Source: Sphingomonadales bacterium
GTDB lineage: Bacteria > Pseudomonadota > Alphaproteobacteria > Sphingomonadales > Sphingomonadaceae
Direction: 5' to 3'
Assembly (NCBI GenBank): GCA_027486275.1
Contig: JAIXPM010000069.1
Location: 1-5,773, forward strand
Length of the DNA stretch: 5,773 nt
The first letter of the stretch is position 1; every line of letters begins with the position of its first letter. Made by a program: the position numbers and the translations under genes. Positions 406 through 5,773 of the stretch are shown piece after piece. The notes under the pieces were generated by a model. That model saw only the letters and a list, made by a program, of their open reading frames with translations, did not search any database and had not been told where the DNA came from.

Positions 406-1815
406 TTAATCCCGGGCGTCGTGGTTCAACAGCGGCCACATCGCTGCCAGCGTGGCGGCCATCAGCGCCAGTTCCAGAGCGAAGATCAACACATAGCCAT
501 TGGCCGCCGCCGGTACATCCAGCCCCAGCGACAGGCCGCGGGCCGCATCGCGCATGACGCCACCGATGGTGGCACCGATGCCCTGGCTGGTGGCCTGCAC
601 CGCGCCCCAGGCCCCCATGGCGATGCCAATCTGGCCCGTTGGCGCCAGCCGCATGGTGGCGGTCAGCGTGCCGTGGCCGAACAAGCCAGTGCCGATGCCG
701 GCCAGCAGCACGCCCAGCGTAAACAGTTCCGGCGTGTCGGATCCGGCGGCCATGATGATCAGGCCATAGGCCGGCAGGCCGATGACGGCGCCCAGGCTGG
801 CCATGCGGAACGGATCGGCCCCCAGGCTGAGGATGTAGGAGGCATAGGCAAAGCCCATCAGGCTGCCGAACGCCATGATGGCGCTGAGCAGCGTGGTGGT
901 GCCCACGCCCAGCTTCAGCACTTCGCCGCCGTAAGGTTCCAGCACGATATCCGACATCGAAAAGGCCAGCGTGCCCAGCCCGACCGCGATCAGGCGCAGC
1001 AGGGTCTTTTCCTTGCCCACGAACAGGTCCCAGCTTTGGCGGAACGTCGGGTCGGGCGTTGCCGGTTCAGTGCGCATGTAATGCGGCACGCGGGCTTCCT
1101 GTTTCCACAACGCGATGAAATTCAGGAAGATGGTCACAACAGCACTGCCCTGGATCACCTGGATCAGGCGGCCGTTGCTGAAATCCTCCAGCGCCCAGCC
1201 AAAGAACAGCGAGGCGACAATGGAGCCAAGCAGCAGCATCACATACATCAGGCCAACCACATTGGGCTGCTGTTCGGGCTTGGTGAGATCGGTGGCGAGG
1301 GCCAGGCCGACCGTTTGCGTGGTGTGGATGCCGGCGCCGACCAGCAGGAAGGCCAATGCCGCGGCCGGCTGGCCCAGCCAGATGCGTTCGTCATAGGCTT
1401 CCTGCGCGCCGGCCAGCACCAGCAGCGCAAACGGCATGATGGCGAGGCCGCCGAATTGCACCATCGTGCCGATATAGATGTAGGGCACCCGCCGCCAGCC
1501 CAGCGCCGATTTGTGCGTATCGGATTTGTGGCCGATCAAGGCGCGGAACGGCGCGGCCAGCAGCGGCAGCGCCAGCATGACGCCCACCAGTGTGGCCGGC
1601 ACGCCAAGTTCGACGATCATCACGCGATTGAGCGTACCGACCAGCAGCACCAGGCTCATCCCCACGCTGACCTGGATCAGCGACAGCCGCAGCAGGCGCG
1701 ACAGCGGCAATTCCGGGCTGGCGACATCGGCGAACGGCAGGAATTGGGCACCCCAGGTCATCCAGACCTTGGTGAGGCGGGCGTTGATGCCCTTTGCGGT
1801 GGGTTCAGAAGCCAT
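406..1815 (-). CDS. pucC: PucC-type light-harvesting complex assembly protein (MFS-fold, BCH/LhaA family)
   Basis: This is an inner-membrane protein of the PucC/LhaA family, which in purple bacteria is needed for assembly of antenna complexes and is thought to handle bacteriochlorophyll or antenna polypeptides. The 469 residues match the usual family length of about 460-480. Near the N-terminus are FLPFADVASPELPLSRLLRL and GTLNRVMIVELGVP. Next come GHKSDTHKSALGWRRVPYI, which resembles the MFS loop between helices 2 and 3, then TVGLALATDLTKPEQQPNVV, LEPYGGEVLKL and FGHGTLTATMR. Long hydrophobic stretches fit about 12 membrane helices. ATG at 1815 is preferred. In-frame TTG codons at 1827 and 1833 lie inside the adjacent terminal repeat and lack a Shine-Dalgarno, whereas ATG has a minimal GGA seven bases upstream. 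It faces pucA and so cannot share its transcript. A family paralogue such as lhaA, serving LH1, is the alternative; proximity to pucA favours pucC. Confidence 0.88.
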   Translation of the reverse strand: MASEPTAKGINARLTKVWMTWGAQFLPFADVASPELPLSRLLRLSLIQVSVGMSLVLLVGTLNRVMIVELGVPATLVGVMLALPLLAAPFRALIGHKSDTHKSALGWRRVPYIYIGTMVQFGGLAIMPFALLVLAGAQEAYDERIWLGQPAAALAFLLVGAGIHTTQTVGLALATDLTKPEQQPNVVGLMYVMLLLGSIVASLFFGWALEDFSNGRLIQVIQGSAVVTIFLNFIALWKQEARVPHYMRTEPATPDPTFRQSWDLFVGKEKTLLRLIAVGLGTLAFSMSDIVLEPYGGEVLKLGVGTTTLLSAIMAFGSLMGFAYASYILSLGADPFRMASLGAVIGLPAYGLIIMAAGSDTPELFTLGVLLAGIGTGLFGHGTLTATMRLAPTGQIGIAMGAWGAVQATSQGIGATIGGVMRDAARGLSLGLDVPAAANGYVLIFALELALMAATLAAMWPLLNHDARD

Positions 1816-1819
1816 TTGA

Positions 1820-1848
1820 GGGTCCAAACTCAATCAGGATAGGGGTCG
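1820..1848 (+). repeat. Left terminal inverted repeat of the palindromic element
   Basis: It begins gggtccaaactcaatcagga and runs on through taggggtcg. It is the inverted copy of 2056-2084 with one difference, a T at 1830 where the other copy implies C. Its outer end is separated from the pucC ATG by only four bases, so on the minus strand it supplies the last part of the pucC leader, including the GGA that may serve as its ribosome binding site. Confidence 0.85.
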
Positions 1849-1852
1849 GCAT

Positions 1853-1947
1853 GGGCCGGAGCGGCGATATGGCTAGGCGCGGGCGCGCTGGCGGGGCTTC
1901 GCCCCCCGGCGAGCGACCGCAACGACGCCATATCGCCGCTCCGGTCC
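1853..1947. repeat. First internal hairpin arm of the element
   Basis: Positions 1856-1873 (ccggagcggcgatatggc) and 1927-1944 form a perfect 18-bp inverted repeat. It extends to 21 positions (1853-1873 / 1927-1947) if a G-U pair at 1855/1945 is allowed. The apex holds a smaller hairpin, ggggc-ttc-gcccc (1893-1905). A seven-base stretch of the apex, gcgagcg (1909-1915), is complementary to cgctcgc (1981-1987) in the second arm. Confidence 0.85.
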
Positions 1948-1957
1948 ACCCTGCGGG

Positions 1958-2052
1958 CGTTGTCAGGAAGGCCGATAGCGCGCTCGCTCGATTGCCGGGT
2001 AGCGCTGCTACCCGGCTGCACTCGCTCACTTCTATCGGCCTTCCTGACAACG
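1958..2052. repeat. Second internal hairpin arm of the element
   Basis: Positions 1958-1978 and 2032-2052 form a perfect 21-bp inverted repeat around the core gtcaggaaggccgatag. Nested at the apex is a perfect 10-bp stem, gccgggtagc (1994-2003) with gctacccggc (2007-2016), closing a gct loop. The flanks of this inner stem carry similar ctcgctc stretches in direct orientation (1982-1988 and 2021-2027) rather than pairing with each other. Like the first arm it spans exactly 95 bases. Confidence 0.87.
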
Positions 2053-2055
2053 TGA

Positions 2056-2084
2056 CGACCCCTATCCTGATTGGGTTTGGACCC
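2056..2084 (-). repeat. Right terminal inverted repeat of the palindromic element
   Basis: This is the inverted partner of 1820-1848, matching at 28 of 29 positions and ending in ggtttggaccc. It lies 52 bases downstream of the rnhA stop. Transcripts of the rnhA operon that are not terminated earlier would therefore enter the structured block before reaching pucC. I see no separate intrinsic terminator between rnhA and this repeat. Confidence 0.85.
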
Positions 2085-2136
2085 TTTGCCTCAAAGCGGA
2101 TTGCGGGCCGATTGGCAATGGGCTCAATGAGGGGTC

Positions 2137-2616
2137 TCAATGACGCCCTGCGTGCCGGCCTTCCTTCATTGCCACAATGGCTTCGTTGGCCAGTTCATCG
2201 GCGCGTTCGTTCTCAGCGTGGCCGGCGTGGCCCTTCACCCAATGCCACCGCACGACATGCGGGCGGGCGGCTGCAAGCAGGGCCTGCCACAGATCGTCGT
2301 TCTTCACCGGTTTCTTGTCGGCGGTCTTCCAGCCGTTCTTCTGCCAGCCGTGCACCCATTTCGAAATGCCGTCGCGCACATAGACGCTGTCGGTGGTGAG
2401 ATCGACGCTGCAGGGCCGGGTGAGGGCGTTCAGGGCCGAAATCGCCGCCTGCAATTCCATGCGGTTGTTGGTGGTGTGGGGTTCGGAACCGTTCAGTTCC
2501 CGTTCCTTGCCGCCGGCGCGGAGGATGGCGCCCCAGCCGCCGGGGCCGGGATTGCCCTTGCAGGCGCCATCGGTGAAGATCGCTACGCGCGGGCGCGCCG
2601 GGCTGTCATCAGCCAC
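2137..2616 (-). CDS. rnhA: Ribonuclease HI
   Basis: This cytoplasmic metal-dependent nuclease cuts the RNA strand of RNA-DNA hybrids, removing primers and R-loops. The 159 residues span a complete family domain with a short N-terminal extension. [16 protein letters not shown] carries the first catalytic Asp (D16), and TNNRMEL carries E54. TTDSVYV carries D76, [17 protein letters not shown] carries H130 and D140. All five sit six positions after E. coli D10, E48, D70, H124 and D134. The basic, Trp-rich stretch around [12 protein letters not shown] corresponds to the substrate-binding handle. The start is GTG at 2616: an in-frame stop lies directly upstream, no nearby ATG exists, and a GGAG sits seven bases ahead. 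It overlaps the end of thrB by eight bases, which suggests translational coupling as third gene of ispH-thrB-rnhA. Confidence 0.96.
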
Positions 2617-5532: not shown

Positions 5533-5564
5533 GCAGCTGTCGCCGGGGGCAACTCTGGCGCCGC

Positions 5565-5756
5565 GCGCGGGAGAGTGTGAAGCGCAAGTTTCACCGCCGA
5601 AGGAGCAAGCCGCCCCCGGAATCTCTCAGGCAAAAGGACCGCGCCGGCGTATTCGCGACACTCTGGAAAGCGGGTGCGGGCTCACGCCTTCACCCCACCG
5701 AAGGGGTAAGCCGGACATTGTCCGGTCAAAGCTCTCAGGTCTGGCGACAGTGGGGG
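5565..5756 (+). promoter_or_regulatory. Tandem glycine riboswitch (gcvT motif)
   Basis: Two glycine-sensing aptamers lie in series, the arrangement known upstream of glycine cleavage (gcv) operons, where glycine binding usually turns expression on. Aptamer 1 spans about 5565-5644. Its closing helix pairs gcgcgg (5565-5570) with ccgcgc (5639-5644), and it contains the conserved gggagag, accgccgaaggagcaa (5593-5608) and ggaatctctcagg (5618-5630), then caaaaggac. After a linker of about a dozen bases, aptamer 2 (about 5657-5756) contains ctctggaaagcggg, caccccaccgaagggg (5691-5706), ctctcagg (5732-5739) and tctggcgacagtgggg. Aptamer 2 has ggaaag where ggagag is common, which leaves one A-C mismatch against ctctc. 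The expression platform and regulated gene, probably gcvT, lie to the right of the window. Confidence 0.94.
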
Positions 5757-5773
5757 AACCAGGTTTGGCACAA

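Follow-up and report, generated by a model that had tools for sequence, protein, structure and literature searches.

The window, by which we mean the whole 5,773-nucleotide stretch of DNA analysed here, carries on its minus strand a PucC/MFS-type (pucC-like) gene at 406..1815 (Pfam PF03209, 6.6e-140) and the RNase H gene rnhA at 2137..2616 (Pfam PF00075, 5e-51), with a palindromic element between them, downstream of rnhA. With the pucC-like ATG taken at 1815, 3 bases remain to the element, which lies directly upstream of the start codon. Elsewhere in the window, positions 1-192 of the plus strand encode the C-terminal part of a light-harvesting antenna alpha/beta polypeptide; the complete gene is found at a related locus, L001 (3008-3277, minus strand; Pfam LHC, 8.9e-11), where the product has an Ala/Pro/Glu-rich tail past the Pfam domain. 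Near the right end, at 5558-5760 on the plus strand, is a pair of tandem glycine riboswitch aptamers (Rfam RF00504, 64.7 and 44.2 bits), and the gene that they would control lies outside the window.

The element spans 1819-2085 (plus strand, 267 bp) and has the form of a giant DNA cloverleaf, in which a 30-bp outer stem (left half 1819..1848, plus; right half 2056..2085, minus) encloses two ~96-nt arms and a small central hairpin. Arm 1 (1852..1948, plus) consists of a basal stem, 1852-1873/1927-1948, and an apical part, 1874-1926, with the loop motif TAGGCGCG...CGCAACGAC; its mirror counterpart, arm 2 (1958..2052, minus), consists of a basal stem, 1958-1978/2032-2052, and an apical part, 1979-2031. 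The arms measure 95 and 97 nt and their basal stems 21-22 bp. Between them, CCC-TGC-GGG (1949..1957, plus) can form a mini-hairpin, the surroundings of which (ACC on the 5' side, GGCG on the 3' side) are invariant or nearly so in the alignment A1 described below.

A first-pass annotation had described this region as a gene-less element at 1820-2084, with three inverted repeats in a geometry unlikely to arise by chance. A repeat search of the window agrees with all three, returning 1819-1851/2053-2085 (33 nt, 94% complementary), 1852-1873/1927-1948 (22 nt, 95%) and 1958-1978/2032-2052 (21 nt, 100%), the halves of the latter two each separated by 53 nt. The location is upheld, and the extent becomes 267 bp (1819-2085) if the adjoining A...T pair is counted. 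RNA folding of 1800-2100 gave -211 kcal/mol, compared with -129.0 +/- 5.35 for 100 dinucleotide shuffles, none of which was as good (z = -15.3), in line with the claim about chance. The three-way junction that had been predicted is the minimum-energy fold of the window element; many relatives, on the other hand, fold as a four-way cloverleaf that includes the CCC-TGC-GGG mini-hairpin. As had also been reported, the ORF list of the window holds no plausible gene within 1819-2085, and Pfam scans of five window ORFs revealed no transposase.

Copies and Empty Sites

An exact 21-mer scan of the species genomes returned one locus, L001, in the MAG Sphingomonadales bacterium 32-65-25 (G001), which is the same site as that of the window element (497/500 identical). 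G001 holds two further elements: one is 88% identical over 267 bp and lies between purE-like and purK-like genes (Pfam AIRC and PurK_C), and the other has an outer stem that is unrelated in sequence and pairs without mismatch. DNA matches to the element were present in 19 of 60 relatives, of which G020, G022, G031 and G041 are discounted as carriers, their matches being only 22-39 nt long. From these searches 43 elements were extracted, the window and L001 copies included; 39 are two-armed and 4 are shorter, without an intact arm 2. Two copies carry an extra hairpin in arm 1 (L043 and L044; 280 and 303 bp), with the remaining fold kept. A subfamily of 276-287 bp in G017, G015 and G024 (L023, L067, L069, L180, L182 and L195) has other apical sequences and ends like TAGGYCGTGAACTCATAAATGG. 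Many element matches in G013 and G019 sit at contig ends (for example L046, L048-L050, L053, L055-L058, L060, L065 and L068), which suggests that near-identical copies are more numerous there and break the assemblies.

The rnhA-pucC junction is empty in all 10 syntenic relatives read (L072-L075, L077-L080, L082 and L076, with gene order judged by eye; the remaining loci from this search have different neighbor genes and fall outside the count), and the element is therefore an insertion there. Elsewhere, the joined flanks of 16 other loci were looked for in 12 genomes. Each of the 10 with aligned junctions is free of the element in one relative or more; six of these (L003, L012, L030, L052, L045 and L013) have clean empty junctions. 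L154 gave no usable junction. The clean junctions fit duplications of 2-3 bp, counted by hand. Of 42 elements, 28 have a TA before the GG core at the left end, 21 at the right end and 14 at both, so that 28 of the 42 lack it at one end or both; the window element itself is flanked by GA and AA. Among 62 elements, the window and L001 are the one pair with shared flanks, if a match of 44 bp that links L014 to L051 is set aside. Given these unshared flanks and the empty sites, the copies are dispersed and look young. The insertion sites checked are often short intergenic gaps. No plasmid matched the window element, plasmid matches of the L062 and L069 elements were all short, and the outer-stem 21-mer had no exact match in viral contigs.

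Many copies adjoin an ORF that ends in TAG at the element edge, and targeting of stop codons was considered as an explanation. It was dropped, since a stop at the edge was observed in 38/79 cases and was at least as frequent (392/703) for TA sites drawn at random from those flanks; single empty sites at L003, L012 and L013 resemble native stops and are anecdotes.

Ends and a Putative IS5-Family Partner

The outer 19 nt of the left end (1819-1837) are AGGGTCCAAACTCAATCAG, identical at 19/19 positions to the left terminal inverted repeat (TIR) of an IS5-family insertion sequence (IS) in G707, a genome of the same family as G001. Read on the minus strand, the first 19 nt of the right half match the same terminal repeat at 18/19 positions, the one differing base forming a T-G wobble in the stem. 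The end pattern AGGGTCYRAACTCAW (a 15-mer) was matched in 14 of 197 relatives, with 16 matches in G707; read backward as a control, the pattern gave one match each in two of the 197 genomes. The G707 IS is ~855 bp long and has transposase frames with DUF4096 and DDE_Tnp_1. The four copies read are identical over at least 855 bp, each with TA on both sides, and we take ISs of this type to belong near the IS427 group. Two other end types also border IS5-family sequences (L102, L107 and L113): TAGGYCGTGAACTCATAAA borders IS5-family genes on Novosphingobium PP1Y plasmid Mpl and on a Methylobacterium DM1 plasmid, and CTAGGCTCAGGACC borders an IS5-family remnant in G018. In nine relatives searched for window-type ends, all 19 matches fell at element ends, and no partner IS with such ends was therefore seen in those nine; G707, which has the matching IS, is a different genome of the same family.

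Fourteen end-pattern loci were examined. Three of them (L266, L258 and L268) have two ends close together, and each of these elements measures exactly 267 bp and is flanked by TA at either end; the two-arm fold, a check independent of the covariance model used below, is clean in L258 and less clean in L266 and L268. The remaining 11 showed no right end within 340 nt.

Other candidate partners were rejected. The IS5 element of Sphingopyxis (indica) pMC4 (L101) has other ends and is located between two element-like ends; this IS5-family IS, at 750-1970 of L101, is inserted at CCTAGG, and another palindrome of about 300 bp seems, by eye, to follow. For the IS5-family candidates L114 and L115 in G001 and G004, none of the three best inverted repeats listed agrees with the element's ends.

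The 19/19 left-end identity with an IS that has TA duplications leads us to read the element as a probable non-autonomous, IS5-mobilised MITE. A MITE was one of three identities that the first-pass annotation had entertained, and the dispersed copies, the empty sites, the TA-type flanks of part of the copies and the end identity favor it. Another was a REP-type composite, here understood as a REP/REPIN-like element that a tyrosine transposase (RAYT/HUH) would move by way of single-stranded hairpins. Two mirror hairpin arms with a strand-oriented loop motif, in an element whose shape is conserved and whose sequence is free, are what such an element might be expected to show; however, its left end is the terminal repeat of a DDE-type IS5-family transposon, the flanks of part of its copies are TA-type, and its arms of ~96 nt compare with 20-40 bp for REPs, which makes this identity most improbable.

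Stem Covariation and the Mismatch Spectrum

To follow the stems across copies, we aligned 34 of 37 inner regions (A1; L023, L044 and L069 were excluded for length). In A1, 44 of 59 predicted pairs have changed on both sides with pairing kept. Within the two basal stems, 97.6% of 1384 cells are paired versus 71.4% after shuffling, and 347 two-sided changes stand against 6 one-sided ones (slid controls gave 33-47 two-sided changes). These basal stems have the lowest mean pairwise identity, 0.631; the apical parts reach 0.828 and 0.767, and the mini-hairpin region 0.811. Two-sided differences between copies rise from a mean of 4.2 at identities of 0.90-0.95 to 20.4 at 0.55-0.60, and one-sided differences have a mean of 1.6-2.2 in every identity bin that holds more than one pair; the most similar single pair has 2 one-sided and 0 two-sided differences, and the least similar 0 and 25. 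The first-pass annotation had advised looking in relatives for further copies and for compensatory changes, the lack of which it held to count against both a mobile element and a conserved RNA, and both were found.

Mismatches in the stems show no strand preference. Among 3931 pairs of 57 elements (a count that leaves out L001 and single-arm copies) there are 41 G-U, 41 A-C and 40 other mismatches; a first count that included L001 and single-arm copies gave 28 G-U, 23 A-C and 27 other of 3037 pairs. An RNA control, consisting of 2 tRNAs only, gave 36 Watson-Crick, 5 G-U and 0 A-C pairs. If an RNA were under selection, G-U pairs on its strand would be tolerated. The equal frequency of G-U and A-C indicates that no strand is favored, which argues that the constraint acts on DNA and not on RNA, and the mismatches resemble raw mutation that followed insertion.

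These data bear directly on a structured RNA, the third identity suggested earlier, according to which the pairing would be selected in a transcript, be it an sRNA, a riboswitch-like leader or an mRNA processing site. The strong covariation, the very stable fold and the position directly upstream of the pucC-like start codon would all suit an RNA; on the other hand, the 41 G-U and 41 A-C mismatches depart from the 5 and 0 of the two-tRNA control, the flanks vary between copies, and relatives without the element have an unchanged gene order. Neither the element nor 13 loci of relatives matched an Rfam family at gathering score. At E <= 1, MIR5534 (28.2 bits, 79 needed; E 0.0017) and snoTBR2 (17.4 bits, 62 needed) appeared and were judged to be chance hairpin matches. 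We regard a structured RNA as very unlikely.

The simplest rival is neutral palindrome correction, in which an ordinary MITE has its quasi-palindromes perfected in place by replication template switching and its shape is unselected. Templated correction would be expected to leave mismatches neutral with respect to strand and one-sided differences scarce, as is observed. Quasipalindromes are described in the accessible part of PMC7202029 as known sites of template-switch mutation, and template switching is proposed for the perfect palindromes of nematomorph mitochondria in that of PMC6649704. At the one locus where the same insertion can be compared in two genomes, with flanks ~2% diverged, the window and L001 copies share their wobble pairs and L001 has one more one-sided change, which suggests that in-place correction, if any, is not fast. 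Neutral correction accounts for the stems; it does not account for the loops, the lengths or the motif, since the apical parts and the mini-hairpin are better conserved than the stems (0.828, 0.767 and 0.811 versus 0.631), and correction alone would not preserve arm lengths, span and loop motif across the order and at least one other. Based on these observations, described further below, we consider it an unlikely account, though one to be taken seriously.

Mirror Arms, Loop Motif, and Breadth

The two arms carry the same loop motif when arm 1 is read on the plus strand and arm 2 on the minus strand. In 28 representatives, 52 of 56 arms were found; AGGM lies no more than 12 nt from the 5' basal stem in 35 of the 52 (500 shuffles: mean 7.0, maximum 16), and RACG, under the same limit, lies near the 3' stem in 33 (mean 6.3, maximum 18). 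On the opposite strand the counts are 1 for AGGM and 3 for RACG. The motif was picked after an alignment of 30 elements had been viewed, many of which are among the 28, so that a fresh sample is needed for these counts. Because the arms share the motif on opposite strands, the element is quasi-symmetric; a covariance model also matches the reverse strand of the window element (76.8 bits), in part because the hairpins are self-complementary.

This model, built on the inner 201 positions, matched 5 of 79 genomes of the family and 15 of 296 of the order (E <= 1e-6), and 6 of 385 genomes of the class (E <= 1e-5). The six class-level matches include G001 and G064, in the same order, and G445, in another order represented by two genomes; G445 holds two elements (E 1e-13 and 3.4e-13). 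The other three are G428, G602 and G627. In the order search, 16 of 18 loci fold as two-armed elements with spans of 252-279 bp and with differing stems and ends; the other two are L212, which has one arm and 204 bp, and L216, too truncated to fold. In a further set of 10 loci, six have spans of 264-274 bp, L239 and L241 are longer at 301 and 306 bp, and the truncated L234 and L237 could not be folded as elements. These results reveal that the same ~267-bp cloverleaf is kept, with unrelated stem sequences, in at least two orders.

Proposed Mechanism

We propose, as the probable explanation, that the element is a non-autonomous MITE mobilised in trans by IS5-family transposases, with a life cycle of folded DNA and templated stems. 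What is observed here is the copies and their empty sites, the identity of the ends, the covariation, the symmetry between strands and the loop motif; transposase use, a folded-DNA step and the templating of stems are what this proposal adds. IS5-family DDE transposases would recognise the outer ~19 bp and insert the element at TA-type sites, and the cloverleaf of two mirror arms would keep its shape, length and internal-loop motif while its stem sequence is free. We infer that the shape is kept while the stems vary because the element depends on DNA folding at some step of its cycle. The folded form may be a hairpin or a cruciform, for instance on the lagging strand, and the complementarity of the stem halves would be maintained in the DNA, most simply with one half templating the other during propagation, through hairpin-templated repair or template switching. 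Once inserted, a copy would be a passenger that decays with the raw mutation spectrum. Against a MITE that needs its fold, recognition of the TIRs alone should need no arms, and the 4 short copies have no intact arm 2; the GA and AA flanks of the window element likewise speak against the proposal, as do the 28 of 42 elements without TA at both ends. The first-pass annotation had offered recent arrival or selection on structure as alternatives, and both seem true: recent arrival at the rnhA-pucC locus, and conservation of shape over the long term.

More tentatively, and with rather more doubt than confidence, we suggest that the element represents a mobile DNA lineage, spanning at least two orders, in which DNA shape is selected, the stems are re-templated and the outer ~19 bp are swapped between IS5-family transposases. 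If this is true, the cloverleaf must fold as single-stranded or cruciform DNA in order to propagate.

MITEs are usually regarded as degraded leftovers of ISs that are recognised through their sequence. In the present case, a single architecture persists across at least two bacterial orders in an element without genes, as its stem sequence turns over. Whether DNA folding belongs to the life cycle of an element of the DDE type, and how the two halves of a palindrome evolve in concert, can now be tested. Strong covariation alone is no proof of a structured RNA, and elements such as this one could be taken for RNA candidates in covariation screens.

Comparison with Known Systems

We found no description of this element family in the literature searched, which lay mostly outside subscription journals. 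Among known systems, the IS5-family IS of G707 shares with the window element the 19-nt terminal repeat of its left end; unlike the window element, which is gene-less and has its own stem inward of the ends, it has transposase frames. The CIR repeats of Caulobacter and relatives, which the accessible part of PMC2229807 describes as ~110 bp long, with two hairpin arms, a linker and a conserved GANTC motif in a terminal loop, are likewise alphaproteobacterial and intergenic with two hairpin arms, whereas the element is 267 bp long and has an end-to-end closing stem; GANTC occurs in 8 of 64 elements and not in the window element. CGTC and GTAG REPs resemble it as palindromic units that are often dimers, and the CGTC class is mostly alphaproteobacterial, without a known dedicated transposase and with stems of 8-9 bp, according to the portion of PMC3733652 available; the basal stems of the element are 21-22 bp, and its IS5-type ends have no mention for REPs in that portion. 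Nearly all long repeats of nematomorph mitochondria have perfectly matching arms, but they lie within mitochondrial protein genes and are not described as mobile in the accessible text of PMC6649704.

Bacterial MITEs are like the element in being small and gene-less, with terminal inverted repeats, a stable fold and, for part of the copies, TA-type sites. ERIC is a MITE of this kind. QMITE2 is a further example in the available part of a review (PMC10969869), and Correia/NEMIS are named as bacterial MITEs in that of PMC2229807; in the accessible text of both, stable stem-loops are described for such elements, and not a covarying architecture. What sets the present element apart from bacterial MITEs is its two mirror arms, a shape fixed over at least two orders, and a stem sequence that is free.
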